From Mesorhizobium sp. NZP2298 (lineage in GTDB: Bacteria; Pseudomonadota; Alphaproteobacteria; Rhizobiales; Rhizobiaceae), in NCBI RefSeq assembly GCF_013170825.1, contig NZ_CP033365.1, positions 558,001-622,000 on the forward strand: a stretch of 64,000 nucleotides of DNA, given 5' to 3'. Of the stretch, positions 29,450 through 48,707 are shown in pieces. Position 1 is the stretch's first letter; each line of letters opens with the position of its first letter. The notes below the pieces were generated by a model. The model had not been told where the DNA came from. It worked only from the letters and a program-made list of their open reading frames with translations, and searched no databases. Made by a program: the position numbers and the translations under genes.

Positions 29450-29468
29450 GGGTCCAAGGCAAGCCATC

Positions 29469-30061: not shown

Positions 30062-30649
30062 AATGGCATCCCGACCGAGATCACGTCGGCAGATGTTGCC
30101 AAGTTTCTGCGCGACGTTGCCAACGGCAAGACCCGAGCCGACGTCAAAACGAAAAAGCGAGGGCGAGCGATCGTGCGCGGAGGTATTGGCACAGGCTCGC
30201 GCGGTGTAGGTCTTCTCGGCGGAATCTTCACGTACGCCATACGGGACGGGATCATCGAAAAGAATCCGGTTCATGGCTTTCGCAAACCAAAGGATCGCGT
30301 TCGAGACCGTCGTCTGACCGAGCGTGAGTATCGGGTGTTGGGCAAGATTCTCGCAGACGCCGCTGACGAGCCGCAGTGGGAAAAGCTCGTCAAAGACACA
30401 CCACTTGAGAGCGTTACACCGCACGTGCTTCGTCACAGCTTCGCGAGCGTTGCAAACGATCTCGGGTTTACCGAGTCGACGATAGCTGCCTTGGTGGGAC
30501 ATTCTCGTGGAACGATCACGAGTCGCTACATTCACACAGTAGACACCGCGCTCGTAATGGCAGGCGATACAGTCGCTAGCTACATTCAGGCCTTGCTTGA
30601 TGGAGTGAAGTTCGAGCGCGCAAATTATGCGCTGGATCACAGCGCGTAA
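30062..30649 (+). pseudogene. Tyrosine recombinase (phage integrase) remnant
   Basis: The frame encodes a recognisable integrase: an N-terminal SAM-like segment (TSADVAKFLRDVANGKTRAD), the core-binding part with FTYAIRDGIIEKNPVHG, and the catalytic C-terminus (TPHVLRHSFASVANDLG, VGHSRGTITSRYIH) with the HxxR, H and final Tyr. The first catalytic Arg and Lys region is missing: ILADAADEPQWEK jumps straight to KDTPLESVTPHV, so roughly 80-100 residues are deleted. A TGA at 30059 interrupts the same frame upstream. Therefore it is inactive. It marks the left edge of the island. Confidence 0.82.
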
Positions 30650-31767: not shown

Positions 31768-32841
31768 CTACAGACGGGCAGAGGCGCGGCGCTGGCGCCA
31801 CTGATCGAGAACGACGGCCCCGACGATGATCCCGCCCTTGACCATCTCCTGGTAGTAAGCGTCGAGCTTCAAGAATGTGAAGCCTGAGATGATCACGCCA
31901 AAGATCAACGAGCCAAGCACGGTTCCGAGGATCGATCCGCGACCGCCCGACAAGCTGACGCCGCCGATAACGGCCATTGCTATGGCGTCGAGTTCATACC
32001 CGAGGCCCATACTGGCTTGGGCAGTCAGATTTTTGGATGAGACCACGATCGCCGCAACTGAGGCGAGGATGGCGGCGAGCGTGTAGACAACCACTTTGTG
32101 GCGGTCGACTTTGACCCCTGACATTCGAGCCGCCGCCTCGTTGGAGCCGATGGCATATATGTGTTTGCCGTAGAGGGTGTATCGCAGTACGAGGTGGAAC
32201 AGAATTGCCAAAGCGACGTAAACGAAAACCGGCATCATACCCTTGCCGATTGCTGCGTAGCTCTCGGTCGGGAAACTGATCGGCTCGCCCCTGGACCACC
32301 ACTTCGCGACGCCGCGAGCCGTCACCATCATGCCAAGGGTGGCGATGAATGGTGGGATCTTGGTGTAGGCGACCAGCGCGCCGTTGATCAGTCCGGCGAT
32401 CAAGCCACACGATAGACCCACGACAATGGGCACGATTACCGGAAGTTCCTGCCAGCCGACCGGCAGATACAACTTCGGATTCAGCTGGCCGTTGACCGTC
32501 AAGACTTGCGCAAAGCTTACGGCGATCATTGAGGTTGCCCCAACGACCGAGCCCGAGCTGAGGTCGATGCCGCCGACGAGGATGACCTGGGTCACGCCGA
32601 TGGCGATGATGCCGACGATCGAGACTTGCAGGATGATGACACTCAGGCGGGCGGTGTTAAAAATTGAGGCGGCGTTCGGCCGAGTATTGAACAAGAATGA
32701 GTCGTGATAGATGAGCCAGCCTAGCGCCTCGAACACAAATACTATCAGGACAAGGGCAATGAAGATGTTGAATTCTGGCGGGCGTTGCCGCTTTGACGCA
32801 TCGGAGTTGAGCCTGCCGACCCCTTGGATGTTTTTCGCCAT
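31768..32841 (-). CDS. Inositol/rhizopine-type ABC transporter permease
   Basis: A 357-residue RbsC-type permease with about ten membrane segments and the signatures GGIDLSSGS and GKHIYAIGSN. ATG at 32841 has AGGGAA upstream; the longer frame to 32901 has no ribosome site and would cover the intercistronic hairpins. It lies between the binding-protein and ATPase genes. The inner-membrane channel for the ligand of the protein at 32932. Confidence 0.86.
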   Translation of the reverse strand: MAKNIQGVGRLNSDASKRQRPPEFNIFIALVLIVFVFEALGWLIYHDSFLFNTRPNAASIFNTARLSVIILQVSIVGIIAIGVTQVILVGGIDLSSGSVVGATSMIAVSFAQVLTVNGQLNPKLYLPVGWQELPVIVPIVVGLSCGLIAGLINGALVAYTKIPPFIATLGMMVTARGVAKWWSRGEPISFPTESYAAIGKGMMPVFVYVALAILFHLVLRYTLYGKHIYAIGSNEAAARMSGVKVDRHKVVVYTLAAILASVAAIVVSSKNLTAQASMGLGYELDAIAMAVIGGVSLSGGRGSILGTVLGSLIFGVIISGFTFLKLDAYYQEMVKGGIIVGAVVLDQWRQRRASARL

Positions 32842-32931: not shown

Positions 32932-33876
32932 TCAGTTCTTCTTCAGGTAGTCGCCGATGTTGTCGGGTGTCACCAGTTGGAACGGGACGAAGACCCTTCG
33001 GTCGACTTTCTTCCCGTGAGCCAGGGCCAGTGCCGCGTCTACAGCGCCCTTTCCCTGTCCGGCGGCGTCCTGGAAGACGGTCACGTCCAGATCGCCTGCC
33101 TGCATCGCCTGCATACCATCCTGGCTGGCGTCGATGCCGGCGATGAGATAGGGCTTTACATCGGCTCCAGACGCCCGGATCCCCTGGATCGCGCCGATGG
33201 CGCTTTCATCATTATTCGCAATCACGCCGTCGAACGGGGTGCCGGTCGAGAGCCAGTTGGTCATCAGGTTCTGCGCCTGCTCCCGCTGCCAGTTCGAGGT
33301 CTGCCTGTCGATGATGTTGATCTTGACGCCGCAGTCGGGGCCGCCGATCACGTCGAGAATATCCTGGGTTCGCTGGACAGCGGCCTGGTTCGAGAGCTCG
33401 CCCATGATGACGTAAACGCTTGCCTCGGTCTTGCCGGCCTTCTTGAAGAGCCGGCAGACTTCCTTTGTCTCGAGGGTGCCGGAATCGCGTTCGTTGGAGG
33501 CGACCAAGGCCTGGTTGGCGGGAAGGGTATCGATGTTGATCGGCTCGCGGTTGAGATAGACCAGCGGAACGCCGGCCGCAGCAGCAGCATCCGTCATCGC
33601 CTGGGTGGCCGACGTATCCTGCGGCTGGACGATGATTGCGTCGACCTTGTTGGCAGCGAAGTTCTTGATCTGGTCCAGCTGCTTGGCGACATCGCCCTGC
33701 GCGTCTTCAACCTGAATTGTCACGCCGTTAATGGACTTTGCATAGGCCACCATTGCGTTCCTGATGACTGTCCCGAAGTTGTCGTCAAACCGCGCCATCG
33801 ATACGGCGATGGTCTCGGCAGATGCCGCACTTGCCATCGAGATGATGAGTGCGGCCGATGCCAGAAGCTTTCTCAT
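32932..33876 (-). CDS. Periplasmic inositol/rhizopine-type binding protein
   Basis: A 314-residue protein with a signal peptide cleaved after ASA (residue 20). The mature part matches the rhizopine/inositol-binding group: ARFDDNFGTVIRN near the start, the QVEDAQGDVAKQLDQI helix, YLNREP, MGELSNQAAVQRT and FDGVIANNDESAIGA. GGAGGAG lies 6 nt before ATG 33876. A much longer frame runs upstream through the promoter and is not real. It is the best clue that the surrounding catabolic genes handle a cyclitol. The ligand is inferred from family resemblance only. Confidence 0.86.
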   Translation of the reverse strand: MRKLLASAALIISMASAASAETIAVSMARFDDNFGTVIRNAMVAYAKSINGVTIQVEDAQGDVAKQLDQIKNFAANKVDAIIVQPQDTSATQAMTDAAAAAGVPLVYLNREPINIDTLPANQALVASNERDSGTLETKEVCRLFKKAGKTEASVYVIMGELSNQAAVQRTQDILDVIGGPDCGVKINIIDRQTSNWQREQAQNLMTNWLSTGTPFDGVIANNDESAIGAIQGIRASGADVKPYLIAGIDASQDGMQAMQAGDLDVTVFQDAAGQGKGAVDAALALAHGKKVDRRVFVPFQLVTPDNIGDYLKKN

Positions 33877-34458: not shown

Positions 34459-35454
34459 TCAGATGCGGGAAACCTTCACCGGCAGACCCGTTTCGTACGA
34501 CTCCTGCGCAGCCTCTCCCAACCGCAAGGCCTGAACCCCGTCGTCGGCACCAGGAGCAGGCAGCTCTCCCTTCACAAGGCACTGGATGAAATAGGCGAGT
34601 TCGGCGACATAGGCTTCGCGATAGCGCTCAATGAAGAAGCCCTGGGGCGGCTCACGGCGGATCCCGTCGCCATCTGCCCTGGAAACCGAGGTATCGAATC
34701 GATTTCCCAGTTCCAGTTTGCCAGCGGCGCCGTGCACCTCGACGCGCTGGTCGTATCCGTAGGTTGCTCGCATCGCATTGTTGACGGTCACGGTCACGCC
34801 CGAAACCGACTTCAGGACGACGAGTGCTGTATCAACGAAGCCAAGCGCCGCGATTTCCGGCTCGGCATAGCAGGCACCCGTAGCATAGACCTCCTCAAAC
34901 TCCTCGCCGATGAGCCATCTGGCCACATCGAAATCATGCACCATCATGTCGCGAAACAGCCCGCCCGACCGGGCAACATAGTCGAGCGGCGGAACTCCGG
35001 GATCGCGGCTGGTCAGAAAGACAAGCTCCGGTGCTCCGATCTCACCCTGTTGCAGCTGCCTGTGGAGGGCCGAGAAGCTCGCATCGAACCGCCTGTTAAA
35101 CGCAAGCATGCAGGCAATTGACTTTTTCCGGACACGTTCCGCGCTTTGTCGAGCAGCGACGAGATCACGCTCGAACGGTTTCTCGCAGAGGATTGCCTTG
35201 CCGGCCTCGATTGCCATGTCGACGACAGCCGCGTGCGTTTCCGCCGGTGTCGCAACGACAACGACGTCGACGTCCCTGCGGCTGACGAGTTCCTCTACGG
35301 ACCGCATCACTGCCGCATCGCCCGAGAGCCGCTCCGCAGCCTCCCGCCATTCATCGAAAACCGCACGCACAGTCGCATCGGTGCGCATCCGCACATTGCC
35401 GGTGTGCACTTGGCCCATGCGCCCAGCGCCTACAATCCCGAAGCCTATCGTCAT
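34459..35454 (-). CDS. Gfo/Idh/MocA family dehydrogenase (inositol 2-dehydrogenase-like)
   Basis: A 331-residue NAD-dependent oxidoreductase. The Rossmann motif GAGRMGQVH is at the N-terminus, the EKP motif with catalytic Lys is in LCEKPFE, and the GYDQRVEVHG strand typical of inositol dehydrogenases is in the C-domain. The MVHDFDVARW helix supplies the catalytic Asp/His region. ATG at 35454 has AGAAGGTG upstream. It is the last gene of the iolD operon, about 175 bp after the SDR. The probable reaction is oxidation of an inositol hydroxyl to an inosose. Confidence 0.83.
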   Translation of the reverse strand: MTIGFGIVGAGRMGQVHTGNVRMRTDATVRAVFDEWREAAERLSGDAAVMRSVEELVSRRDVDVVVVATPAETHAAVVDMAIEAGKAILCEKPFERDLVAARQSAERVRKKSIACMLAFNRRFDASFSALHRQLQQGEIGAPELVFLTSRDPGVPPLDYVARSGGLFRDMMVHDFDVARWLIGEEFEEVYATGACYAEPEIAALGFVDTALVVLKSVSGVTVTVNNAMRATYGYDQRVEVHGAAGKLELGNRFDTSVSRADGDGIRREPPQGFFIERYREAYVAELAYFIQCLVKGELPAPGADDGVQALRLGEAAQESYETGLPVKVSRI

Positions 35455-35628
35455 GTTAATGCACCTTCTGGGTCTAATCGCCACCCCGCACTGGACCGAC
35501 GGTCTGGCGGATTCCGCGACTTAAGGTCGAGAACAATACTCCCGTCTTTCAATCATTATTTCGATTACGACAGGAGTCGGACATGAGAGCTTCCGCTCTG
35601 TACTGAGTGCGATGCCTAAATCGCCCGT

Positions 35629-36393
35629 TCAATCGGCAGTCCAACCACCGTCAACCATAAGGGACGACCCTGTCACCAAGGCAGCAGCGTCCGACGCAAG
35701 GTAGGTCACTGCAGCCATAATATCTTCGACCTTGCCGATACGGCCTAGTTTGATTTTTTCCGTGATCCATTTCATCCGCTCCGGGCTCGCGAACGTCTTC
35801 TCGGTCAGACCGGTGCGAATGAAAGTGGGGCAGATTGTGTTGACCCTGATGCCGGAACTTCCCCACTCGATTGCCATGGACCTGGTGAACCCCTCCACCG
35901 CATGTTTCGTCGCACAATAGACGGCACGATCAATTCCACCGACATGCGCCATCTGCGACGAGATTGTGATGATCGAGCCCGGCCTGGCGGCCGCGATCAG
36001 GCCCCTGGCGACAGCCTGTGCCACGAAGAATGCACCCTTGACGTTGACGGCAAATGCGGCGTCGAAATCATCGGCGGTCGTGTCGAGAGCGCGCCCGTGG
36101 CGGGCGATGCCTGCGCTATTGACCAGAACGTCGAAGGGACCGCTCTCTGCGACGGTCACCCTCATCCCCTCGACGTCCTGCACGTCGAGGCCGAGGGCCT
36201 GAGCGACCAGCCCTTCGGCGGCAATAGCCTTCGCCGCCTCGTCCAGCCGCGCCGAAGGACGCGCCGCCAGCGAAACGGCAGCGCCGGCTTCGGCAAGGGC
36301 CATGGCCGCGGCGAGCCCGATCCCGGAGGACGCACCGACCACGAGGGCCTTTCGCCCATCCAGCCGGAACGACGGAGTCCTGGGAAGCGACAT
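35629..36393 (-). CDS. SDR family oxidoreductase
   Basis: A 254-residue classical SDR: VGASSGIG, NSAG (LVNSAGIA), Ser in TISSQM and catalytic YCATK. AGGAGGTCAG precedes ATG 36393. A much longer in-frame extension runs through the upstream gene and is not coding. It is 40 bp downstream of the HisD-like gene. A secondary-alcohol oxidation in the cyclitol pathway is likely; the exact substrate is unknown. Confidence 0.85.
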   Translation of the reverse strand: MSLPRTPSFRLDGRKALVVGASSGIGLAAAMALAEAGAAVSLAARPSARLDEAAKAIAAEGLVAQALGLDVQDVEGMRVTVAESGPFDVLVNSAGIARHGRALDTTADDFDAAFAVNVKGAFFVAQAVARGLIAAARPGSIITISSQMAHVGGIDRAVYCATKHAVEGFTRSMAIEWGSSGIRVNTICPTFIRTGLTEKTFASPERMKWITEKIKLGRIGKVEDIMAAVTYLASDAAALVTGSSLMVDGGWTAD

Positions 36394-36433
36394 GCTCAAA
36401 CTGACCTCCTTGCGACCGTCTGGTCGGTCACCT

Positions 36434-37744
36434 TCATTCGGCCGCAGTCCCATAGGCGATGTTGCGGCCGCCGTAGCGCCGCACGCGAACGTTTGCCTGT
36501 TCCGCGTGGCCGACGAAACCTTCGAGCATGCACAGGCGCGAGCAGTATTCTCCGATCTCCGCGGCCGCCTGGTCCGTGACGATCTTCTGGTAGGAATGCG
36601 TTTTAAGGAACTTGCCCACCCATAGGCCGCCAGTGTAGCGGCCGGCCTTCTTCGTCGGCAGCGTATGATTCGTGCCAATGACCTTGTCGCCGTTTGCAAC
36701 ATTGGTACGTGGCCCGAGGAACAGGGCGCCATAGGAGTGCATTTTCTCCAGAAACCAGTCGTCGCGGTCGGTCATGATCTGGACGTGCTCCGAGGCGATC
36801 TCGTTGGCGACCTCGAGCATTTCCTCATAACTGTCGCAGACGATGACCTCCCCGTAGTCGCGCCACGAAGCGCTCGCGGTTTCCGCCGTCGGCAATATCT
36901 TCAGCAGGCGGGCGACCTTAGCGAGGGTGTCGCGGGCGAGCATCTCCGAGTTCGTGACAAGGATGGCAGGCGAGTTGTAACCGTGCTCCGCCTGCCCCAG
37001 CAGGTCGGTGGCTACGAGTTCGGAATCGACGGTATCGTCGGCAACCACCATCGTTTCCGTCGGGCCGGCGAACAGGTCGATGCCAACCCGTCCGTAAAGC
37101 TGCCGCTTCGCTTCGGCGACGAAGGCGTTTCCCGGGCCCACCAGCATGTCGACGGGCCTGATCGTCTCGGTTCCGAGCGCCATCGCGCCGATCGCCTGCA
37201 TGCCGCCAAGGACATAGATCTCATGCGCACCGCCCTTGTGCATCGCGGCAACGATGGCCGGGTGCGGCTCGCCCTTCTGCGCCGGCGCGGCTGCGACGAT
37301 ACGCGGGACGCCGGCCACCGAGGCGGTCAGCACCGACATGTGTGCGGAAGCCACCATGGGGAACTTGCCTCCTGGCACATAGCAGCCGACCGACTGCACC
37401 GGAATGTTGCGATGGCCGAGGATGACACCGGGGTAGGTCTCGACCTCGACATCCCTCATCGACGCGCGCTGGATCTGGGCGAAAGTGCGGATCTGCGTCT
37501 GTGCGAATTCGATGTCGGCCATGTCACGCGCCGACACTTTCGCGAGTGCGGCCTCGATTTCCGACTGCGACAGGAGAAAGGACGGTGGCGAGAACCTGTC
37601 GAACCTCTCGGACAGCTCGCGCACCGCGGCGTCGCCCCGAGCCTCGATGTCCTTCAGGGTAGCCTCGACGACGGCGCGCACCCTGGCGTCGTCTTCTGCC
37701 CGGTCGGCAGCAGGCTTCCCGGTCTTGAGATGGCGGATGGTCAT
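36434..37744 (-). CDS. Histidinol dehydrogenase-like (HisD family) dehydrogenase
   Basis: A 436-residue HisD-fold protein with the cofactor region YVPGG, the zinc-binding Gln/His in [18 protein letters not shown] and the C-terminal His in [13 protein letters not shown]. It lies in a catabolic operon with no histidine genes, like HisD paralogues that oxidise other alcohols (for example the sulfopropanediol dehydrogenase HpsN). Oxidation of an alcohol or hydroxy acid intermediate is the likely role; the substrate cannot be read. Its length is normal for the family. Confidence 0.83.
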
Positions 37745-37821
37745 GGATCGGGTTTCTCCTGTGGTCGTTAAGACTGGCTCACTCGCACCTGAATATGCGT
37801 TGGCCTCACCTTGCTTCTCGA

Positions 37822-38691
37822 TCAGAGCGTGGCGAGGCGCTGGGGTACTCCCGGCACCTTTACCCGGGCGGCGAAGAGTCCCCCCGCGAAGGGCGCTGCC
37901 CGCAGCTCGTCGTCAGTATGCATGACCCGCAATGTTGTGGCGTAGAGCGTCCGGCCATCTCTGCCGCCGAGCGTCACGCAGGTTGGTCCCTTGGTGGGAA
38001 GCCCAATGGTTTCGGCGACGGTTCCGTCCGGGGCAATGCGAACGAGGCAGCCTCCCCAGACCCGGGCGTTCCAGTAACCACCTTCGGCGTCGACAACCGC
38101 ACCGTCCGGCCGCCCGGCGGCGACCTCCGGACCCGCCAGCGGGGCCACCTCGGTCAGGTTTTCCCATGACAGGGATCCGATGTGAAACCGCCGGATCGTT
38201 CCCTCAGGCGTGTCGGCGAAGTACATCATATCTCCGCCCGGCGAGAAGGCGATGGCGTTGCTGATCGTGACGCCGGACAGCAGCTGGCTGATGGCGCCTT
38301 CGGGCGAGCAGCGGTAAAGCGCCGCCACGGGCTTGCGACCGCGCTCGTCGAAAGTCCCGAAGACGACCCCGCCGAAGGGATCGACGGCAGCGTCGTTGAC
38401 CCGTGTCTGCGGCAGGTCCTCCTCGATCAGGGCGACCGTTTCGAAGACCTGGAAAGCTGGGTCGCAAATCGCGATGCGGCTCGCCAGGCCCATGACGAAG
38501 CCCGGTCGACTGCGCGGCAGAATGAAACCCGCGCGTTCGGGCAGGGGAAACACGGTCACGGCGCCGTCAGCATCCAGACGGTAGATCCGGCTCTCGGCGA
38601 TGTCGGTCCAGTACAGCCGGCCATCCCGGGGGTCCCAGACGCAGCCTTCGCCGAGGGTGTTTCTGCAGTCGACAACGCAGGTCGCGGTCAC
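37822..38691 (-). CDS. SMP-30/gluconolactonase family lactonase
   Basis: A 289-residue six-bladed beta-propeller protein. Metal ligands are recognisable: Glu15 (LGEGCVWD), Asn in RVNDAAVDP, Asn in [11 protein letters not shown] and Asp in [13 protein letters not shown]. These enzymes hydrolyse sugar lactones to the acids. It overlaps the IolE-like gene upstream by 4 bp. In this operon it fits as the partner of the uronate-dehydrogenase-like enzyme at 42549, which would make an aldarolactone. Confidence 0.85.
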
Positions 38692-39608
38692 GCCCCTGCC
38701 CCTACCGGCGCAGCCATCCCGATCGAGGCGAGATAGGTGAAGCTTTCCCGCGCGTTGTCGAGCGGCGAGGCATCGCCCGTCGGGTCCACGTCCTGCTCGA
38801 CCACAGCCACGCCGCTGTACCCTATGTCCGTGAGCGCGTCGCGGACTGCGACGAAATCAACGACGCCCTTGCCCAGCGGGCAGAAAATGCCCCTGGCGAT
38901 CGCGTCGAAGAAGCCGATGCCTTCGGCGACACAGGCTGCGTGCACCCCTTTGTCGATGTTCTTCAGGTGCATGTGGCCTACCCGGCCCTCATAGCGCCTG
39001 ATCAGGCTGATCGGGTCGATGCCCGCGTAGGCCGAGTGGCCTGTGTCGACACAGAGCCCGACCAGATCATCAGGCAGGTCGGCCATGGCGCGGTCCAGCT
39101 CGTCCCCGTATTCGATGTAGCAGCCGGCATGCGCGTGCAGGTAGGATGTAACGCCGTAATCGTCGCGCGCGATCTTCGCCAGTTCGACGATGCGGCTCAT
39201 CATCGCCTTCCAGTCCCCGGCGCCAAGGCGCGGCGCCTGCTCCGGACGACCGGCGAACATGCCACGCCCGTCGGACACGCAGTCGATGATGACGAGCCGC
39301 GGCGCCGCCAGTTCCCTGAGTATGGTGCAGGTGCGCCGGGTTTTGTCGACTACATTGGCGAAGGCGCCTGGATCCGTCAGCGGGTCGAAGAGCCCGCCCG
39401 CGGACAGGGTCAGGTTTCGGCTCGCCAGTTCGTCGGCGAGGCGCGCGCTATCGGTCGGGAAGAAGCCCACTGGCCCGAGGTCGATCGCCGCGAAGCCCGC
39501 GGCTGCCGCCTCGTCGAGAACCCGCATCCAGGCAGGGTTCTCCGGCCGGTCGGCGAAATCGACGCCCCAGGAGCAGGGGGCATTTGCCAGTCGATAAGAA
39601 GCCGTCAT
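38688..39608 (-). CDS. IolE/MocC-like inosose dehydratase or sugar epimerase (TIM barrel)
   Basis: A 306-residue AP-endonuclease-2-type TIM barrel with the IolE-like APCSWGV start, the metal-site His in LHAHAGC and HLKN, CVDTGHSA and the terminal Glu in VVEQDVDP. IolE dehydrates scyllo-inosose to the cyclic 1,2-diketone; MocC of rhizopine catabolism belongs to the same group. It overlaps both neighbours by 4 bp, so it is tightly coupled to the lactonase and the MocA-type gene. The iolD homologue in the same operon supports the dehydratase reading. Confidence 0.83.
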   Translation of the reverse strand: MTASYRLANAPCSWGVDFADRPENPAWMRVLDEAAAAGFAAIDLGPVGFFPTDSARLADELASRNLTLSAGGLFDPLTDPGAFANVVDKTRRTCTILRELAAPRLVIIDCVSDGRGMFAGRPEQAPRLGAGDWKAMMSRIVELAKIARDDYGVTSYLHAHAGCYIEYGDELDRAMADLPDDLVGLCVDTGHSAYAGIDPISLIRRYEGRVGHMHLKNIDKGVHAACVAEGIGFFDAIARGIFCPLGKGVVDFVAVRDALTDIGYSGVAVVEQDVDPTGDASPLDNARESFTYLASIGMAAPVGAGA

Positions 39609-40741
39609 CGGGCAATCTCCTCAGTCTTGACCCAACGGTGTTCCTCTGCGGACACCAGAACCGCCTCGACAACGCGGTCCACCACGTAGCCAAACTCGAA
39701 GTCCGCGACCCAGGGTTTGCCCGAGGCGACGGCCTCGATCAGCCGGCGTGCCTCGATGATCTTCAGGTCGTTGTAGCCAAGCGGATTGCCCTGAAGCCCG
39801 AAGAAGGCCGCATAGTCCGGGTGCTGTGGCGCAGCGAGAATGCGTTTGTAGCCACGCTCGGCCGGTTTGTCGGATACCCGGTAGAGATTGAGCTCGTTCA
39901 TCCGCTCCTGATCGAACAGCAGGGCGCCTTTGGTGCCCTGTATTTCGTAAGACAGATAGAGCTTGCGTCCGGTGCCGATGCGGCTCGCCTCGAGGTATCC
40001 CGATGCCCCGTTTCTGAAACGGCACAGGAAATGGGCAAGGTCGTCATTCTCGACGGTCCGCTCGTTTCCCTTCGCGTCCCTGCGCCTGGCATGCAGGATC
40101 TGCCGCGTGCCGCAGACTTCGGTGACCTCGCCGACCAGATAGTGCGCGAGGCTGAGCACGTGGCTCGCCATGTCGCCGAGCGCGCCTGCCCTGCCAGCGG
40201 CCTGCGCATCGGTTCGCCAGGTGAACGGGAAACTCTCCTCAACCATGTAGTCGTTGTCGAAGGTTCCGCGGAAGTGGAAGATCTCGCCGAGTTCACCGGT
40301 CTCGATGAGCTGCCGGGCATATGCCTGGATCGGACTGCACAGGTAGTTGAAGCCCACCAGTGTCACGACACCGGCATCTCGCGCGGCCTCGTGCATTGCC
40401 CGCGCTTCGCGCGCCGTGTTGGCCATCGGCTTTTCGCAGTAGACATGCTTGCCGGCGGCTATCGCTGCGAGCGCAATCTCGGGGTGGACGTCATTGGGCG
40501 TCGTGATGTCGACCACGTCGATGTCGGGATCGTTGATGATGTCGCGCCAGTTGGTAGTGAAGGACCCGACGCCGAAGCGCTGCGCGAAATCCTTCGCCGC
40601 CTCTTCGCTTACGTCGGCCACCGCCACGATCTTCAGCGTCGCGGGCCCGGTGCCGAAAATCCGGGGCACACCTTCGAAGGCGGCCGCATGGGCCCGTCCC
40701 ATCCAGCCTGCGCCGATAAGGCCTACTTTGATTACAGTCAC
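39605..40741 (-). CDS. Gfo/Idh/MocA family dehydrogenase
   Basis: A 378-residue protein with Rossmann motif GLIGAGWMGRAH and catalytic Lys in YCEKPMA, then the alpha/beta C-domain with GDMASHVLSLAHYL. GTG at 40741 is chosen: CTGGAGAAG lies upstream, whereas ATG 40768 has no ribosome site and lies inside the hairpin 40766-40786. It overlaps the IolE-like gene by 4 bp. It is longer than the iolG-like proteins here and probably acts on a different ring position or sugar. Confidence 0.82.
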   Translation of the reverse strand: MTVIKVGLIGAGWMGRAHAAAFEGVPRIFGTGPATLKIVAVADVSEEAAKDFAQRFGVGSFTTNWRDIINDPDIDVVDITTPNDVHPEIALAAIAAGKHVYCEKPMANTAREARAMHEAARDAGVVTLVGFNYLCSPIQAYARQLIETGELGEIFHFRGTFDNDYMVEESFPFTWRTDAQAAGRAGALGDMASHVLSLAHYLVGEVTEVCGTRQILHARRRDAKGNERTVENDDLAHFLCRFRNGASGYLEASRIGTGRKLYLSYEIQGTKGALLFDQERMNELNLYRVSDKPAERGYKRILAAPQHPDYAAFFGLQGNPLGYNDLKIIEARRLIEAVASGKPWVADFEFGYVVDRVVEAVLVSAEEHRWVKTEEIAR

Positions 40742-40765
40742 TTTGGCTTCTCCAGGAGGGAGCCA

Positions 40766-40786
40766 CATGGTGCGATGCGCACCATG
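40766..40786 (-). other. Perfect hairpin between the aldolase and MocA-type genes
   Basis: CATGGTGCG (40766-40774) and CGCACCATG (40778-40786) are perfect 9-bp arms around ATG. It lies in the only sizeable gap in this part of the operon. The core GGTGCGATGCGCACC resembles the IclR-type palindrome (TGTGCGAT...), so it could be either an mRNA hairpin or an internal regulator site. Confidence 0.5.
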
Positions 40787-40799
40787 GGTTTTCCCGTTG

Positions 40800-41570
40800 T
40801 TAATTGCGGACAGTTTCCCGTGCCGCGCGTGCTTCCGCGGCCAGCGACGACTTCAGAAGGTTTGCTTCACTGTTGGGAACGACGAAATCGAACCCCTCAC
40901 CGCTGCGCCGAGCAGCAACCGCGCTGGACGGGCAGAAGATTCCTGCATGCTTGCCGTGTGCCTTGGCCGAGGAGAGGCAAAGCAGGATAGCTGCCCTTAC
41001 CGCCTCGTCCGTCGGGTCCCCCAAGGTGCCCTTGCCCATCGCGAGCCCAAGGTCGTTGGGACCCACGAAAATCCCGTCCAGACCTTCTACCGCGCAGATC
41101 TCGTCGAGGGCCTCCAGCCCCTTTAGGGTCTCAATCATGCCAAGCCGCACGATCGAGGCGTCGGCATAAGTAGGGTAGGACGCGCCGCCGTAGAGCAGAC
41201 CGCGTGCAGGGCCGAAGCTTCGGTTCCCAAGCGGCGGATAACGCGTTGCCGCCACGAAGGTCCGGGCATCACGGGCACTGTCGATCATCGGGCAGATGAT
41301 GCCGAACGCACCGGCGTCGAGCGCCTTCATGATCAAGGCGGGCTCGCAGGAGGGGACACGCACGATCGGGGTGGCCGGGGTCGCTGAAATCGCCTGTAGC
41401 ATAGAGATCATGGTCTCTACCCCCGTCATCCCGTGCTGGAGATCCACCAGGACGCAGTCATAGCCAGCCCATCCGGCGATCTCCGCCGTGTAGCTGTTGC
41501 CGATCGATAGCCACGCGCAGACTGCCGCGCCGCCGCTGGCCCATGCGTCGCGGATGTTGTTACTGCGCAT
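40800..41570 (-). CDS. HpcH/HpaI-type class II aldolase
   Basis: A 256-residue TIM-barrel aldolase. Family residues are clear: DLQHG near residue 47, the Arg in VRVPS, the metal-binding Glu in GMIETLKG and Asp in VGPNDLGL. Such enzymes cleave 2-keto-4-hydroxy acids to pyruvate, or hydroxypyruvate for some members, and an aldehyde, without phosphorylated substrates. It overlaps the 2-hydroxyacid dehydrogenase gene by 11 bp. It replaces the IolJ aldolase expected in a classical inositol operon. Confidence 0.87.
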   Translation of the reverse strand: MRSNNIRDAWASGGAAVCAWLSIGNSYTAEIAGWAGYDCVLVDLQHGMTGVETMISMLQAISATPATPIVRVPSCEPALIMKALDAGAFGIICPMIDSARDARTFVAATRYPPLGNRSFGPARGLLYGGASYPTYADASIVRLGMIETLKGLEALDEICAVEGLDGIFVGPNDLGLAMGKGTLGDPTDEAVRAAILLCLSSAKAHGKHAGIFCPSSAVAARRSGEGFDFVVPNSEANLLKSSLAAEARAARETVRN

Positions 41571-42537
41571 CGGTCGCGACCTTCAGGACGGAGGGGTTGA
41601 CGACGAGGGTCGGATCGAGAACACCGTCAATGCCTGCCAGCGCATTACGGGCGGTCATAATTCCCATCGCCAGGAGAGATTCTTCCGTGAGGGCCGCGGA
41701 ATGCGGGCTGAGGACGACCCGCCGGTCAGCGACCAGCGGGTGAGTAGCAGGGAGGGGCTCGACCTCAAACGTGTCCAGTCCTGCCGAACGGACATGGCCA
41801 GTTTCCAGCGCCTCGACCAGGGCCGCCTCGTCGATGATGCCGCCACGCGCGGCATTGATGACGATCGCGCCGGGTCTCAGCGCCTTCAGGGCCGCGGCGC
41901 TGATTAGGTGGCGGGTGGCTTTCGACAGGGGGACATGAAGGGTCAGAATATCTGCGGTGGCGAGGCCATCCTCAAGCCGCTCGACAAAGCGCGCGCCGGC
42001 GGGATCGGCTCGCGAGGCGAACGGGTCATGCACCAGGATATGCATCCCGAAGGCAGTCGCTCGCCTGGCGACTTCGCGACCGATCCGGCCGAAGCCAACG
42101 ATGAGCAGCGTGCGGCCCCGGAGCTCGACACCGATAAGCCGCGACCGGGCGCCGAAGTCTCCGGCCCGGATGGCCGCGTCCAGCCGGATGCCGCCCCGCG
42201 CGGCGGCCAGCATCAGGAACATCGTCTGTTCGGCGACAGAGATTGCGTTGACGTCGCCCACGACCGTAACCGGCACGCCCCGTCCGGTGCAGTAGTCTAC
42301 CGGGATGTTGTCGTAACCGACACCGTGGCGCGACACGATCCGAAGGTTCGGGGCCGCGGCGAGAACCTCTATGGGCAACGGCGCGTCTCGGACGGTTATA
42401 GCTACCGCCTCCGCAACGCGGGCGACCAGGTTCTCCTTCGAGAAATCTGTCACGACCTCGTAGGAGACGTCGCTACGCTCCTCGAAGAGCGCGAGTGCTT
42501 CGGCGCGCAGCGGCTGGATGACAAGGATTTTCATCAT
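41560..42537 (-). CDS. D-isomer-specific 2-hydroxyacid dehydrogenase
   Basis: A 325-residue member of the glyoxylate/hydroxypyruvate reductase group. The NAD-binding GFGRIGRE is followed by the catalytic triad: Arg in NAARGGII, Glu in FEVEPL and His in LSPHSAAL. ATG at 42537 is followed at once by another ATG at 42534; a GTG at 42552 overlaps the upstream gene. Reduction of hydroxypyruvate or another 2-keto acid to the D-hydroxy acid is likely. Next to the HpcH-type aldolase, it could process that enzyme's product. Confidence 0.86.
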   Translation of the reverse strand: MMKILVIQPLRAEALALFEERSDVSYEVVTDFSKENLVARVAEAVAITVRDAPLPIEVLAAAPNLRIVSRHGVGYDNIPVDYCTGRGVPVTVVGDVNAISVAEQTMFLMLAAARGGIRLDAAIRAGDFGARSRLIGVELRGRTLLIVGFGRIGREVARRATAFGMHILVHDPFASRADPAGARFVERLEDGLATADILTLHVPLSKATRHLISAAALKALRPGAIVINAARGGIIDEAALVEALETGHVRSAGLDTFEVEPLPATHPLVADRRVVLSPHSAALTEESLLAMGIMTARNALAGIDGVLDPTLVVNPSVLKVATDAQ

Positions 42538-42548
42538 GGCTTTCGATC

Positions 42549-43388
42549 TCACCAGCGGCTGCCGAATACCGGCGTCGCGGCGCCGGACGGAAAGAAGCTT
42601 TCGCGGAAGCGCGCGGCCGCGTCACTGAACCGGACCGGCAGCGTCATGGTCGGCTGATGCCTCTGCACGGGCGCGTAAGCGATGGCGTCCCGCCCCTCGG
42701 CCAGACTCCACCGCATGCCGTCGTTTGCCGAGACCACGTTGATTGCATGGAAGCCGGAAAACTCTGCGGTCGCGGATTTCGCAACGGCCTGGGCCCAGTC
42801 TTCGTTGCCGAGCCACATCTGCTGGCCCCAAAGGCCGAATGCCATGTGAGGTCCAGGTATGTTCTCGCCCGGCTGGCAGTAGCCTATCCGCAGCGAGAGG
42901 AACGCCATCCCGGTATCGTCGCTGACCAGTCGTCCGTACCGCTCGACAAAGAGCTTCGACGCCCCGTAAGGGTTGACCGGCCACGGTGGCAGGGCCTGCG
43001 TCAGCGTCTCGCCTCCGAAGCGATACCCTCCGAGAACCCAGTTGGAACTGGCGAACACGAAGCGCTTTACGCCGCCGTGCCGGGCCGCCCGGATGACATT
43101 GAGCGCGAGGTCAATGTTGAGGCGTGAGACCGTATCCCAGCCGCCGGCCGCGCGGGGATCCGCGGCGAGATGGAGCACGGTGTCGATACCTTCGAAATGC
43201 CTCGCCCAACCGTCGTCATAGGTTTCCAGGTCGGCGGTCACGACCGCCGGGTCGCTGGCGCCGTTGCGACCGATGCGGGTCAATTCCAGGCCATTGACCG
43301 CCTGAAGCGCCGCCGCTGCCTTTTGGCCGAGGTTGCCGGTGGCGCCCGTCAGGAGGACGCGCCAGCGCGGGAGGAGAGCGTCCATCAC
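42549..43388 (-). CDS. Uronate dehydrogenase-like NAD-dependent epimerase/dehydratase family protein
   Basis: A 279-residue extended SDR with TGATGNLG, Asp-rich ADLETYDD, the SSN segment (FASSNWVLGGY) and catalytic YGASK. The SSN plus YxxxK pattern and overall length fit uronate dehydrogenases, which oxidise uronic acids to aldarolactones. It overlaps iolD by 4 bp. The IolD product, 5-deoxyglucuronate, is itself a uronate-like aldehyde acid, so it is a reasonable candidate substrate. Confidence 0.78.
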   Translation of the reverse strand: MMDALLPRWRVLLTGATGNLGQKAAAALQAVNGLELTRIGRNGASDPAVVTADLETYDDGWARHFEGIDTVLHLAADPRAAGGWDTVSRLNIDLALNVIRAARHGGVKRFVFASSNWVLGGYRFGGETLTQALPPWPVNPYGASKLFVERYGRLVSDDTGMAFLSLRIGYCQPGENIPGPHMAFGLWGQQMWLGNEDWAQAVAKSATAEFSGFHAINVVSANDGMRWSLAEGRDAIAYAPVQRHQPTMTLPVRFSDAAARFRESFFPSGAATPVFGSRW

Positions 43389-45232
43389 ACGCCCATGCGC
43401 TGAAACCTGCGCTGATCCTCCTGCGCGTCCCGCGCAGTTGCGATCGTTGCACGTTCAGTTACTTCGGGCATACCCACGTCCCACCACGAACCACCGTCCA
43501 TCCACTCGTAGGGATGAGTGCGCATGGCGATGACGTAGGTCCGGTCGCTGGCACGCGCACGGCCTATCGCGGCCTCGAGCTCCTCGATTGTAGCAACCGT
43601 TTCGGACCCGGCACCCATCGAGCGGGCATGCATCGCGAAGTCGATGCGGGGAACCTCTCCGCTGCGCTTCGAGGAGGCGAACAGGTTGTTGAACTCGGCG
43701 CCTCCCTTGCCAACCTGCAGCCGGTTGATGACCGCGAACCCTCCATTGTCGCAGACGATGCAGATGATCTTGTTCCCGGTGAGCACGGAGGAATAGATGT
43801 CCGAGTTCAGCATCATGTAGGAGCCATCGCCCAGCAGGGCGAAGATTTCCCGGCCCGGGTTGGCAATCTTCTGGCCGTACGCGCCGGCAATTTCGTAACC
43901 CATGCAGGAGAAACCGTATTCTGACTCGAAGCTCCCGATCCCGATCGACTTCCAGGTGCAGTAGAGCTCGCCGGGCAGGCCGCCTCCTGCGGTAACTATG
44001 ACATCGTCGACCCTGGCGTTCCGCTGCAGCGCGCCGATAACCTGCGGGTAGCTCGGCACCTCCTGGTCTGTCGGCCTCGTCCGTTTCTCGATGACCTCGT
44101 CCCAGACAGCTTTCTCCCGGATCGCCTCGTCGGCCCAGCTGGCCGGGGCGGACCAGTCGCCCAGCCGCGCCGCGATGGCAGCGAGCGAGAGCTTCGCGTC
44201 GCCGATCACCGGCTGTGCCATGTGCTTGTTGGCGTCGAAGCGGTTGGCGTTGAGCGCGAGGAATCTCACATCCGGATCGCGAAAAACGCTCCATGAGCCA
44301 GTGATCATGTCGGCCATCCGCGTGCCGATCGAAATTACCAGGTCGGCCTTGCCAGCGATGGCGTTGGCCGCGGAGCCGCCCATGACCCCAATCGAAGCGA
44401 GGTTGAGCCGGTGTTCGTGCAACAGCGCCGAACGTCCCATAATGGTTTCGGCGACCGGGATCCCGAAGCGGTCGCTGAACTCAGCCAGCTCGCCCGTGGC
44501 ACCCGAGTAGTGGACGCCCCCGCCGGCGATTATGAGCGGCCGCTTCGCCGAGCGGATCATGCGGATCGCCATCGCGATCTGATCTTCGTCGGCGGGATAT
44601 CGGGGTATCCGGTGAACACGCTCGACGAAGAAGGCTTCCGGGTAGTCGAATGCTTCACCTTGTACGTCCTGCGCCAGCGAGATGGTCGCGGGACCACAAG
44701 CCGCCGGATCGAGCATCAGCGCCACGGCCTGCGGCAGCGAGGTGAGGATCTGCTCCGGCCGGGTGATGCGATCGAAAAACGATGACACGGCTCGAAAGGC
44801 ATCGTTCGCTGTCAGCGACATGTCGTGGAAATGCTCGACCTGCTGCAGGACAGGGTCGGGAAGGCGAGAAGCGAAGTTGTCGCCGCACAGGAAGAGCACG
44901 GGAAGGCGGTCGGACATCGCCACGCCGGCGGCCGTGACCATGTTCGACGAGCCCGGGCCGACCGAGGCCGAGCAGACGTGGATCTGTTTGCGGCGCCGGG
45001 CGCGGGCATAGGCGACCGCGGCAAGCGCCATCGACTGTTCGTTCTGCCCGCGATAGGTCGGAAGCTGGTCCTGGACCTCTTCCAGAGCCGAACCCAGGCA
45101 GGTGACGTTGCCGTGACCGAAGATCGCGTGCACGCCTGAGAAAAGCGGCAGAACCGCACCTTCGTCCTCAATCTTCTGCGCGATCAGAAACCGCACGATG
45201 GCCTGCGCAAGCGTCAGCCGAACCACACTCAT
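43385..45232 (-). CDS. iolD: IolD-type ThDP-dependent cyclic diketone hydrolase
   Basis: A 615-residue acetolactate-synthase-fold protein closely following IolD. It has SGVHAIFGHGNVTCLG, the catalytic Glu region in QNEQSMALAA, SASVGPGSSNMVTAAG, DPVLQQVEHFHD and QDVQGEAFDYPE, and the ThDP motif LLGDGSYMMLNSD with DNGGFAVIN. IolD opens 3D-trihydroxycyclohexane-1,2-dione to 5-deoxyglucuronate. ATG 45232 is preferred over 45235 because GGAGG sits at better spacing. It is the first gene of a ten-gene operon and faces the IclR gene across a shared promoter. Confidence 0.87.
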   Translation of the reverse strand: MSVVRLTLAQAIVRFLIAQKIEDEGAVLPLFSGVHAIFGHGNVTCLGSALEEVQDQLPTYRGQNEQSMALAAVAYARARRRKQIHVCSASVGPGSSNMVTAAGVAMSDRLPVLFLCGDNFASRLPDPVLQQVEHFHDMSLTANDAFRAVSSFFDRITRPEQILTSLPQAVALMLDPAACGPATISLAQDVQGEAFDYPEAFFVERVHRIPRYPADEDQIAMAIRMIRSAKRPLIIAGGGVHYSGATGELAEFSDRFGIPVAETIMGRSALLHEHRLNLASIGVMGGSAANAIAGKADLVISIGTRMADMITGSWSVFRDPDVRFLALNANRFDANKHMAQPVIGDAKLSLAAIAARLGDWSAPASWADEAIREKAVWDEVIEKRTRPTDQEVPSYPQVIGALQRNARVDDVIVTAGGGLPGELYCTWKSIGIGSFESEYGFSCMGYEIAGAYGQKIANPGREIFALLGDGSYMMLNSDIYSSVLTGNKIICIVCDNGGFAVINRLQVGKGGAEFNNLFASSKRSGEVPRIDFAMHARSMGAGSETVATIEELEAAIGRARASDRTYVIAMRTHPYEWMDGGSWWDVGMPEVTERATIATARDAQEDQRRFQRMGV

Positions 45233-45359
45233 CATTTCCTCCGCGGATCCTCCTGGACAACCGCTCGCGACGGCGGCGTTGCGTTCGTAAATCGATCGCG
45301 TGCGCATGTCGCTCGTGTTTGCCGTCTGGCGAGATCCATTTCCCATATTCCCCTAGCGC

Positions 45360-45395: not shown

Positions 45396-45432
45396 TTGAC
45401 GAGTCGGGCCTTTTGTGAGATTTATCGCCCTC

Positions 45433-46230
45433 ATGGATGCCGAAATTCAGAAGCGCGACTTTGCCCAGACCCTTGCGCGGGGGCTTGCCTGCCTCGAACG
45501 CCTTGCCGAGGCCGACACCCCGTTGACGTGCACCCAGGTTGCGCATGCAATGGACGTCAGCCGCGCCGCGGCCCGGAGAATACTGCTTACCCTTGAGAGT
45601 CTCGGCTACGTCAGGGAGGAGCGCGGGGTTTATGGAGGTACGCCGAAGGTGCTCTCTCTCGGACGCGGCGTCCTGGGACGAACGAGCGTCTGGAATGCCG
45701 CAGCGTCCATTGTGGTGACGCTGGCGGACCAGGTCAATGAGCCGTGCTCGATCTCGGTTCTCGAAGGACTGGACATCATGTTTGTCAGCCGGGACTCGAC
45801 CCGACGTATCTACACGTCGCGCCTTGGTGTCGGCGACCGGTTGCCCGCCTATTGTTCTGCCAGCGGCAAGATGCTCCTTGCGTCCCTTCCTGTCGCGGAG
45901 CTCGACAGGCGCCTTGACGGGATCGTGCTGGCAAAGCAGGGCCCGGCGTCAGTGACGGATATCGGTGACCTGAAGACCAGGCTGGACGAAACCCGGCAGG
46001 CGGACTTTGCAAGGGCGATCGACGAAATGGAGAACGGCACGATCTCGATCGCCGTACCTCTGCGCGAAAGGAGCGGTCGCGTCGTCGCCGCCATGAGCGT
46101 CGCATCACACAGAGACAGACAGTCACCCGAGGATCTGACGAACAATGTTCTTCCCCGGCTTCGTGAAGCTGCTCGGGACGTCGAAGGTATCTTTCGCGAC
46201 TTCCAAGAAAGAGGATGGGCAACCCTATGA
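45433..46230 (+). CDS. IclR family transcriptional regulator
   Basis: A 265-residue regulator with an N-terminal winged HTH (about 15-75: LTCTQVAHAMDVSRAAARRIL, then wing with GYVREERGVY) and a C-terminal IclR effector domain with SASGKMLLAS. The pattern resembles the PcaR/PobR branch, which often activates. ATG 45433 is used; GTG 45415 would add six residues. It faces iolD and probably controls both the iolD operon and the transporter at 30931-33876. Confidence 0.86.
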   Translation: MDAEIQKRDFAQTLARGLACLERLAEADTPLTCTQVAHAMDVSRAAARRILLTLESLGYVREERGVYGGTPKVLSLGRGVLGRTSVWNAAASIVVTLADQVNEPCSISVLEGLDIMFVSRDSTRRIYTSRLGVGDRLPAYCSASGKMLLASLPVAELDRRLDGIVLAKQGPASVTDIGDLKTRLDETRQADFARAIDEMENGTISIAVPLRERSGRVVAAMSVASHRDRQSPEDLTNNVLPRLREAARDVEGIFRDFQERGWATL

Positions 46231-46448: not shown

Positions 46449-47447
46449 TCAGATCGAGGCCGTAACGGCGCGACCTTCCCGATGGGATTGACGCGCCGCA
46501 TCGGCAAGCGCGAGCGCCCTGCGTCCGGCCGCAAAGTCCGGCTGGGGTTGCGTCCCCTTCTCGACAGCATCGATGAATGCGTCGAGCTCCAATGCATAGG
46601 TCGGCAGATAGCGGGCCAGGAAATCCGGTGCCAGCAGGTCCTTCGCGGTCACACCTGCAGCCGTGGTCCGCTCGATCGCGGTGCGGTGCAGGTTCCCCGA
46701 CGAGACCAATCCGAGCGACCCGAACACCTCGACCCGCTGATCGTAGCCATAGACGGCTCTTCGGGAGCAGTCGATCTTGCAGAAGGCACCGTTTTCGAAC
46801 CGCATCAGGACCTGCGCCGTGTCGGTATCGCCGTGGCGGCCAATTTCCGTATCGACCAGAGTGGAGCCCATGGCGAAGACCTCCGTCTGACCGGACGCGC
46901 CGGAGAGCCAGAGCGCAAGATCGAAGTCATGGATCATCTGGTCATGAAACTGCCCGCCCGAGACGGCGATATAGGAATAGGGCGGCGGTCCCGGATCCCT
47001 GCTGACGATCGAGATCACCTCGACCTTACCAACCTCACCGCCCGCAACAGCCGCATGGACGGCGCGATGGGTCGGATCGAAACGACGCTGGAAGCCGATC
47101 ATGATCGGCACGTCGCACCCCTTGATCGCCTTGGCGCAGTGATCCACACGTGCCATGTCGAGGTCGATAGGCTTCTCGCACAGGACTGCCTTGCCGGCCT
47201 TGGCCGAGGCGATGATCAGATCGACATGCGTATTCGTCGCCGACGAGATAATGACGGCATCAACAGCCGGATCGCTGAGCGGGCCGTCAGGGCGGGTTGA
47301 GGCCTTGGCGCCGAACTTTGTTGCAAGCGCGGTGGCGCGATCGAGATCGGGATCGACGACGTAAGCCAACTCGGCCCTGTTGCTGGCCGCAAGATTTACT
47401 ATGTGGCGTTCGCCCATGCGGCCGGCGCCAAAGACAGAGAATTTCAT
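46449..47447 (-). CDS. Gfo/Idh/MocA family dehydrogenase (inositol 2-dehydrogenase-like)
   Basis: A 332-residue protein with FGAGRMGERH, catalytic Lys in LCEKPID, FQRRFDPTH and the inositol-dehydrogenase-like YGYDQRVEVFG. It is a close relative of the protein at 34459. GAGGAAAAC precedes ATG 47447. It is the last gene of the second island operon, which runs from 54246 downward. The likely reaction is NAD-dependent oxidation of a cyclitol or sugar ring hydroxyl. Confidence 0.84.
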   Translation of the reverse strand: MKFSVFGAGRMGERHIVNLAASNRAELAYVVDPDLDRATALATKFGAKASTRPDGPLSDPAVDAVIISSATNTHVDLIIASAKAGKAVLCEKPIDLDMARVDHCAKAIKGCDVPIMIGFQRRFDPTHRAVHAAVAGGEVGKVEVISIVSRDPGPPPYSYIAVSGGQFHDQMIHDFDLALWLSGASGQTEVFAMGSTLVDTEIGRHGDTDTAQVLMRFENGAFCKIDCSRRAVYGYDQRVEVFGSLGLVSSGNLHRTAIERTTAAGVTAKDLLAPDFLARYLPTYALELDAFIDAVEKGTQPQPDFAAGRRALALADAARQSHREGRAVTASI

Positions 47448-47472
47448 GTTTTCCTCGTGCTGATTATTTTTT

Positions 47473-48645: not shown

Positions 48646-48672
48646 CGATCGAAAATCCTTTGCCAGGGAAGA

Positions 48673-48696
48673 GGCCTCCCGCTTGCGCGGGAGGCC
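48673..48696 (-). other. Intercistronic stem-loop after the binding-protein gene
   Basis: GGCCTCCCGC (48673-48682) and GCGGGAGGCC (48687-48696) form a perfect 10-bp stem with the tetraloop TTGC. It lies 11 bp after the binding-protein stop and before the dehydrogenase start at 48645. It is the most stable of the hairpins next to binding-protein genes in this window. No T-tract follows, so partial termination or mRNA protection is more likely. Confidence 0.6.
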
Positions 48697-48707
48697 GCCG
48701 CCGCACC

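Follow-up and report, generated by a model that had tools for sequence, protein, structure and literature searches.

The closest described system is the classical inositol pathway, IolG-IolE-IolD-IolB-IolC-IolJ-IolA, of Bacillus subtilis and many bacteria. An operon of Mesorhizobium sp. NZP2298 shares with it a transporter, a ring dehydrogenase, an IolE-type dehydratase, IolD and a proposed malonate semialdehyde product, but is without IolB, IolC and IolJ and would use oxidation, lactone hydrolysis and a class II pyruvate-type aldolase, with no phosphorylated intermediate. The operon lies on a stretch of 64,000 nucleotides, here called the window (contig NZ_CP033365.1, positions 558001-622000, forward strand), in a genome of one contig of 7.34 Mb. 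The inositol pathway of Thermotoga maritima, reportedly described by Rodionova et al. in 2013, is said to have no IolB or IolC and to place a second oxidation before the C3 stage; its diketo-inositol is said to be hydrolysed to 5-keto-L-gluconate without IolD, the genes being of the IolM, IolN and IolO type. Unlike that pathway, the window operon has IolD and an HpaI-type aldolase, and because IolD is present its route should be other than the Thermotoga type. The oxidative uronate pathway consists of uronate dehydrogenase, lactonase, aldarate dehydratase and a GarL-type aldolase. It has a Udh-like (uronate dehydrogenase-like) enzyme, a lactonase and an HpcH/HpaI aldolase in common with the operon, whose substrate would however be a 5-deoxyuronate and whose products would be hydroxypyruvate and malonate semialdehyde. 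No aldarate dehydratase was found among the open reading frames (ORFs) of the operon; a galactonate/gluconate dehydratase-like gene, scoring below cut-offs, is 29 kb away at 4151-5329. An initial annotation of this DNA had named no described pathway with this gene set, and searches of openly licensed full texts, outside which most subscription journals lie, likewise gave no description of this enzyme set or route.

All genes of the operon are on the minus strand. From 45235 to 34459 they run IolD, Udh-like dehydrogenase, D-2-hydroxyacid dehydrogenase (D-2HADH), HpcH/HpaI aldolase, Gfo/Idh protein, IolE-like protein, SMP-30, HisD-family dehydrogenase, short-chain dehydrogenase (SDR) and IolG, and the binding protein, permease and single-domain ATPase of an ABC transporter stand downstream of IolG (Table 1). 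From iolD through udh and D-2HADH to hpaI, neighbouring ORFs overlap by a few bases. The initial annotation had recognised an operon beginning with iolD, holding IolE-like and IolG-like genes together with the six Udh-like, SMP-30, SDR, HisD-like, HpcH/HpaI and D-2-hydroxyacid dehydrogenase genes, and all of these are minus-strand ORFs where it had placed them. IolD and IolG pass their cut-offs, and IolE is divergent, since its TIGR04379 score is below the cut-off. We consider it likely that this is a second inositol (cyclitol) operon with an upper half of ordinary kind and a lower half that is oxidative and ATP-free.

What is observed is which genes are present, the families to which they belong and that they keep company with IolD across genomes; from this we infer the substrate, every reaction after IolD and the order of the reactions. 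The ABC transporter would import inositol, and IolG and the scyllo-inositol-dehydrogenase-like protein would oxidise myo- and/or scyllo-inositol, both of which would converge on the same inosose. IolE would dehydrate the inosose and IolD would open the ring to a 5-deoxyhexuronate. In the classical route IolB isomerises this product, IolC phosphorylates it and IolJ performs the aldol cleavage; here the Udh-like enzyme would instead oxidise its C1 to give a lactone, which SMP-30 would open to 5-deoxyglucarate. After oxidation of C2 by a dehydrogenase (D-2HADH, SDR or the HisD-like protein), the HpaI-type aldolase would split 2-oxo-3,4-dihydroxyadipate into hydroxypyruvate and malonate semialdehyde. 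The former would be converted to D-glycerate and the latter to acetyl-CoA via a methylmalonate semialdehyde dehydrogenase (MMSDH) encoded elsewhere. A route of this kind had been called chemically consistent in the initial annotation, and by arithmetic its formulae do balance step by step, from 5-deoxyglucuronate (C6H10O6) through the lactone (C6H8O6) and 5-deoxyglucarate (C6H10O7) to the 2-oxo acid (C6H8O7) and its cleavage into hydroxypyruvate (C3H4O4) and malonate semialdehyde (C3H4O3).

Genome contigs were scanned for Udh-like loci with six exact peptide patterns, which reach close relatives only. Below, L numbers denote genome stretches, G numbers denote the genomes compared, and the module is the Udh-like gene set linked to IolD. 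The scan gave 18 loci. Ten had at least 56% identity and IolD was nearby in all ten, whereas IolD was found at none of the eight weaker loci (27-45% identity). D-2HADH directly follows Udh in nine of the ten, which is 9/9 where the contig reaches past Udh, Opitutia included; the L008 contig stops inside Udh. HpaI comes next in seven. The L004 and L008 contigs end before it, and L010 shows 869 further bases without it. SMP-30 was present in 6/10 of these stretches, HisD in 5/10 and SDR in 4/10, and a homologue of the divergent IclR-type regulator (45-79% identity) in seven. The hosts are Shinella, Rhizobium, Burkholderia, Paraburkholderia, a Hyphomicrobiales metagenome-assembled genome (MAG), a proteobacterial MAG and two Opitutia MAGs (Verrucomicrobiota). 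In L011, from the Opitutales MAG G008, Udh-D-2HADH-HpaI-SMP-30 is divergent from IolE-Gfo-IolD; in L010, from the Opitutia MAG G007, Udh-D-2HADH is divergent from the same trio. This is another arrangement of much the same genes. A genome search for the gene set, proposed in the initial annotation, found IolD and the Udh-like gene together in ten other contigs, the majority of which carry more of the set as well, and for this reason their clustering is not due to chance. Because much the same set is found in distantly related bacteria, a real, undescribed variant is probable, and the operon is probably a new variant of inositol catabolism.

The module is rare. Module-type hits were obtained in 2 of 397 genomes of the host's order, 2 of 249 of the family of G004 (Burkholderia) and 2 of 132 Opitutales; Rhizobium ecuadorense (stretch L005), placed in the same family as the host, appears as both G003 and G035 and was counted once. 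None of the eight other genomes of the same genus listed in the order sample had the Udh-like gene (E <= 1e-50). Of 8000 candidates scored in a protein search, 387 reached E <= 1e-60. Further Udh hits were three at 43-47% identity in the order, of another kind in both that were checked, and one at 44%, also of another kind, in the Burkholderia family. Udh relatives at 27-47% (L013-L020, G305, G346, G554) were rejected as module members, there being no IolD match beside those examined. As a separate observation, the module of L004 runs off one end of its 89.6 kb contig, NZ_CACSKD010000020.1. A module-type aldolase of the same genome, at G002:C20:88420-89178, is probably at the far end of that contig, which may then be circular, a plasmid.

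The initial annotation had also listed iolB, iolC, iolJ and iolA as absent. None of the four is among the operon ORFs, and genome-wide iolB and iolC searches gave zero matches inside the window. For the genome the statement fails. A classical operon occupies genome positions 532685-538562, about 54 kb from the window operon, with iolC at 532685, iolD at 534634, iolE at about 536585 and iolB at 537807; a second iolB is at 3969184 and a single MMSDH/iolA-type gene at 1322753. The idea of an organism without iolBCJA was therefore dropped on the strength of iolB, iolC and the MMSDH/iolA-type gene, iolJ not having been searched for genome-wide. The classical and window proteins of the host are 50% identical for IolD and 28% for IolE. 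Because the classical phosphorylating genes are present too, the operon is a second, parallel cyclitol system and not the only route of the host.

Classical genes were also sought, as the initial annotation had suggested, in nine module genomes besides the host, a set outside which the genome of L007 lies. The outcome was divided: both iolB and iolC were over cut-off in six, and the remaining three (G005, G007 and G008) lacked any match to iolB, and none of their iolC scores passed the cut-off. The IolDs of both Opitutia genomes exceed the IolD cut-off, the IolD of G005 being outside this test. Among the 132 Opitutales genomes IolD (E <= 1e-150) was found in nine, full-length in eight and half-length in one. 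Six of the eight match the iolB family and are without the Udh module, and the other two carry the Udh module without iolB; the half-length genome has neither. The association is suggestive, although numbers are small (Fisher p 0.036 for the eight full-length genomes, 0.083 for all nine). One of the six iolB-family matches is over cut-off and five are at 88-98 bits. These five form a divergent iolB class (G440, G455, G456, G487, G532), which adjoins iolD in four of them and is on another contig in G455.

The most telling locus is L062, which together with L009 comes from one Hyphomicrobiales MAG. In its cluster (2574-9307) the proteins are 45% (IolE), 38% (Gfo) and 53% (IolD) identical to those of the window, and adjoining genes are IolC-like (290 bits, cut-off 300), IolB-like (158 bits, cut-off 205) and class II fructose-bisphosphate aldolase/IolJ-like. 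L062 is a variant phosphorylating cluster, with an upper half of the window kind and a phosphorylating lower half. This supports the view, already put forward in the initial annotation, of an oxidative set in place of iolBCJ: the genes for the Udh-like, D-2HADH, HpaI and SMP-30 proteins go together with IolD and occupy the positions held in this sister cluster by the IolC-, IolB- and IolJ-like genes. In IolD trees the window type is joined to L062 (100/99) and separate from the Opitutia/L009 type, and a single clade of module IolDs was rejected by the approximately unbiased (AU) test (p-AU 0.005). L062, L058 and L009 are long branches in this tree, for which the tree program warns that they may mislead; the L003 IolD was entered by hand from ORF 8130-9977, and outgroup L023 was omitted from the AU-test tree. 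Because one module IolD clade is rejected, the oxidative cassette has probably come together with IolDs of two lineages, and this would be hard to explain unless the cassette acts on the IolD product. We are evenly divided on the broader proposal that this is a further natural inositol route with no kinase before cleavage, in which IolB-IolC-IolJ give way to a cassette of Udh, D-2HADH, HpaI and SMP-30, often with HisD and SDR, and in which this has happened under two or more separate IolD lineages of the Pseudomonadota and Verrucomicrobiota.

The choice of inositol as substrate is based on the transporter and the ring dehydrogenases. The binding protein of the window also matches 4irx, less well than 4yo7, both of which we take to be inositol complexes. 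Many of its best 120 homologues are named 'inositol transport system substrate-binding protein' by JGI, and the nearest named one is from Mesorhizobium sp. ES1-6 (98%). The Shinella module operon has its own binding protein, with a best match to 4ru1, which is called a verified myo-inositol transporter in the available part of one report (PMC10747050). Both transporters thus appear to be of the inositol type. The initial annotation had called the binding protein inositol/rhizopine-type. The inositol half of this agrees with the structure and homologue matches; rhizopine uptake was rejected for the two binding proteins of the window, which score 31 and 57.8 bits against an NF052284 cut-off of 420. 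The Gfo protein is below the IolG cut-off (TIGR04380 125.2 bits). Its solved relatives 5ya8 (LgdA, scyllo-inositol dehydrogenase; 293 bits) and 6a3f, presumably a levoglucosan dehydrogenase, match about equally, and it is a probable ring dehydrogenase. LgdA is reported, in the accessible text, to prefer scyllo-inositol to L-glucose and to sit in a putative inositol cluster (PMC12632266). A second IolG gene upstream of the operon encodes a protein 67-76% identical to the IolG of five related loci; of the two in the host, it is the closer to the IolG standing behind SMP-30 in related operons.

For the Udh-like protein the match to 3rft, a uronate dehydrogenase and its best solved match, covers residues 10-266, and the best NCBIfam match is Azf (99.3 bits, below the cut-off of 400). 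Y141 and K145, the Tyr and Lys of the family, are invariant in a 12-row alignment. Udh relatives without IolD are near lactonases in three stretches, as a dehydrogenase that makes a lactone should be: SMP-30 in L063 and L064, and in Vibrio L013 a protein resembling 6-phosphogluconolactonase. The nearest solved relative of the aldolase is SwHKA of Sphingomonas wittichii RW1 (6r62, 7o5i), and each of the eight solved structures that it matches best carries the name HpcH/HpaI aldolase; SwHKA accounts for the entries 7o5i, 6r62, 7nnk and 7o9r. It is 62-84% identical to six orthologues. Residues D43, H46, R71, E147, D173 and F212 are invariant in the module, and we take the first five to have their usual roles in the active site. 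The conserved F212 corresponds to a Phe of SwHKA, a hydroxyketoacid aldolase that, in the text available, was crystallised with hydroxypyruvate and uses it as a donor in vitro (PMC10099721). The HpcH/HpaI cleavage proposed in the initial annotation gains support from these relatives.

Three proteins could oxidise C2. The HisD-like protein has the sulfopropanediol 3-dehydrogenase HpsN as its nearest solved relative, with 173-274 bits for solved histidinol dehydrogenases against 383 for 8v35, and a function in histidine biosynthesis was rejected on this ground. It exceeds the TIGR00069 cut-off, which indicates family membership only. Unlike the HpsN context, no sulfonate gene was recognised among the scanned proteins. 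Both Opitutia genomes (61-62%) and G006 (80%) have a module-type HisD on other contigs, and in stretch L076 the orthologue is beside a sodium:solute symporter. An 80% identical HisD/HpsN-type gene at L078:1162-2466, in a 6.6 kb contig with no IolD match, is flanked by two proteins that by eye resemble SnoaL, neither of them matching an NCBIfam profile at E <= 1e-10. In D-2HADH the Arg/Glu/His of the family, presumably catalytic, are invariant in a 9-row alignment. This enzyme may oxidise C2 of 5-deoxyglucarate, or may reduce hydroxypyruvate as the initial annotation had it. The former is a variant of the proposed route and does not exclude it: D-2HADH would act before cleavage, HisD and SDR would be accessory, serving the entry of other isomers or the disposal of hydroxypyruvate, and the minimal set would be Udh, SMP-30, D-2HADH and HpaI. 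We hold this variant to be nearly, though not quite, as probable as its converse. D-2HADH belongs to the contiguous core, with HpaI following it in seven loci, C2 of the D-gluco configuration is a D-2-hydroxy acid, and neither HisD nor SDR was found in L009-L011. On the other hand, L010 and L011 stop just past IolD, and the HisD genes on other contigs in both Opitutia genomes and G006 may not be dispensable. Oxidation of 2-hydroxy acids by the D-2HADH family is also thermodynamically uphill.

A number of observations weigh against the oxidative route as a whole. The similarity of the Udh-like protein to true uronate dehydrogenase is weak, and no SMP-30 was seen in L065, the stretch of another Udh relative. 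SwHKA takes several pyruvate analogues in vitro and, according to the accessible text, its natural substrate is not established (PMC10099721). The classical genes of the host could also take the IolD product. The module genomes in which iolB and iolC were not found are all MAGs of unknown completeness, so that absence in a single genome is weak evidence. G007 has IolD, Gfo, IolE, Udh, D-2HADH and HisD and is without a module-type aldolase, which is missing from the bases past D-2HADH; its best HpaI-family match scores 155.9 bits, against 487 in G008. No module-type aldolase and no module-type HisD were found in G005, whose module contig is only 4.2 kb. MMSDH (E <= 1e-100) is missing in G005 and G008 and present in the other seven of nine genomes, a sample that does not include G002. 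SMP-30 was not seen in the 19.5 kb of L009, and the failure to find HisD and SDR in L009, L010 and L011 counts here too.

The oxidative route would also be compatible with another cyclitol as substrate, such as scyllo- or chiro-inositol, an O-methyl-inositol such as pinitol, or rhizopine. A separate lower branch beside the classical one would then be explained by a ring-opening product that is a stereoisomer or derivative which IolB cannot isomerise. This is a serious possibility that we rate somewhat below even. It agrees with the low identity of the window IolE to the classical IolE of the host, with the scyllo-inositol dehydrogenase type of the Gfo protein and with the divergence of IolB and IolC in L062. 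Around the module of L009 (1562-18105) there are two PhyH-family dioxygenases, an MtaA/CmuA-type methyltransferase, a B12-binding protein and a RACo-type activator. These corrinoid methyltransferase and associated genes suggest O-demethylation, and methylated inositols may feed some versions of the module. However, IolD passes an equivalog cut-off, the two IolGs at the operon end and upstream are both over theirs, the transporters match inositol binders, and the scores for rhizopine binding are far too low.

It is unlikely that the operon holds two pathways, in which IolG, IolE and IolD would feed the classical IolB and IolC 54 kb away and the Udh, SMP-30, D-2HADH, HpaI, HisD and SDR proteins would degrade an unrelated uronate or aldonate. 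The presence of iolB and iolC in the host and in six of the nine other module genomes speaks for such an arrangement, and the Udh, SMP-30 and HpaI families are typical of uronate and aldarate degradation. Yet the Opitutia genomes carry the module without iolB or iolC, linkage to IolD is complete (10/10) with overlapping iolD, udh, D-2HADH and hpaI ORFs, the cassette is joined to two IolD lineages, and the operon has no aldarate dehydratase gene. Recruitment of IolD and IolE to the chemistry of a non-cyclitol sugar (L-glucose or an anhydrosugar) is highly improbable, for although the Gfo protein resembles LgdA, a scyllo-inositol/L-glucose dehydrogenase, and 6a3f about equally, IolD is over its equivalog cut-off, the transporters are of the inositol type and LgdA itself favours scyllo-inositol (PMC12632266).

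Inositol is common in soil as phytate and phytate products. If the proposal is correct, there is an added route for its use, with no kinase before cleavage and with extra NADH. It would provide a physiological setting for an aldolase with a hydroxypyruvate donor and functions for families annotated only as NAD-dependent epimerase, histidinol dehydrogenase and phosphoglycerate dehydrogenase. A large genome survey, as far as its accessible text goes, requires three or more of iolB, C, D and E in one cluster before it scores inositol use (PMC9430895). The window operon, having no iolB or iolC, fails this rule, so that the survey would pass over operons of this kind. A study of fitness data reports an aldolase domain fused to IolC, and the accessible part of its text describes no oxidative route (PMC9007349).

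Table 1. Predicted products of the operon and of genes next to it, with positions in the window and supporting matches
Predicted product	Position	Strand	Match
IclR/PcaR-type regulator, divergent from the operon	45415..46230	+	TIGR02431 248.8 bits, below cut-off 284.75
IolD, trihydroxycyclohexane-1,2-dione hydrolase	43385..45235	-	TIGR04377 822.9 bits, cut-off 715
Udh-like sugar/uronate dehydrogenase, extended SDR, YxxxK motif	42549..43385	-	3rft 51.9 bits
D-2HADH, phosphoglycerate dehydrogenase/hydroxypyruvate reductase family	41560..42552	-	TIGR01327 275 bits, below cut-off 454
HpcH/HpaI class II aldolase	40800..41570	-	SwHKA (7o5i) 178.9 bits; PF03328 107.9 bits
Gfo/Idh/MocA dehydrogenase, levoglucosan/scyllo-inositol dehydrogenase type	39605..40768	-	NF052479 356.8 bits, below cut-off 650
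IolE-like dehydratase, divergent	38688..39608	-	TIGR04379 169.3 bits, cut-off 290
SMP-30/gluconolactonase-type lactonase	37822..38691	-	PF08450 223.9 bits
HisD-family dehydrogenase, sulfopropanediol 3-dehydrogenase (HpsN) kind	36434..37744	-	8v35 383 bits
SDR dehydrogenase, KduD/gluconate-5-dehydrogenase-like	35629..36393	-	PF13561 199.6 bits; KduD 196.1 bits, below cut-off
IolG-type inositol 2-dehydrogenase	34459..35454	-	TIGR04380 369.2 bits, cut-off 355
Sugar ABC binding protein, inositol type	32932..33876	-	best solved match 4yo7
ABC permease of inositol-type transporter	31768..32841	-	NF007014 MglC 202 bits, below cut-off
ABC ATPase, single domain, inositol-type transporter	30931..31758	-	NF041861 184 bits over one profile half
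Second IolG, upstream of the operon	46449..47447	-	TIGR04380 371.2 bits

Two starts needed attention. IolD has two adjacent ATGs, at 45235 and 45232, either of which may be used; the initial annotation had taken 45232. A 367-residue SDR protein starting at 36732 was rejected, the true start being internal and near 36393.

Further genes were seen around the operon. Upstream, the second IolG is part of a sugar cluster (46449-55413) with another Gfo/Idh protein, a RhaS/LsrB-like binding protein, two permeases, an ATPase, an SDR over the NF004847 cut-off and a LacI-type regulator. On the other side three minus-strand ORFs of 258-367 residues (27196-30640) have no Pfam or NCBIfam match and may not be genes, and two large plus-strand ORFs (22834-27912) have Proton_antipo_M domains (Mrp/NADH-quinone oxidoreductase-like). 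The region 2307-16018 holds a transketolase-like N-half and two further sugar ABC ATPases besides the galactonate/gluconate dehydratase-like gene mentioned above. In the Opitutales stretch L011 the segment 12747-15707, a few kb from the module, encodes EboE (over cut-off), an EboC-like protein (below cut-off) and a 3-dehydroquinate synthase-like protein.

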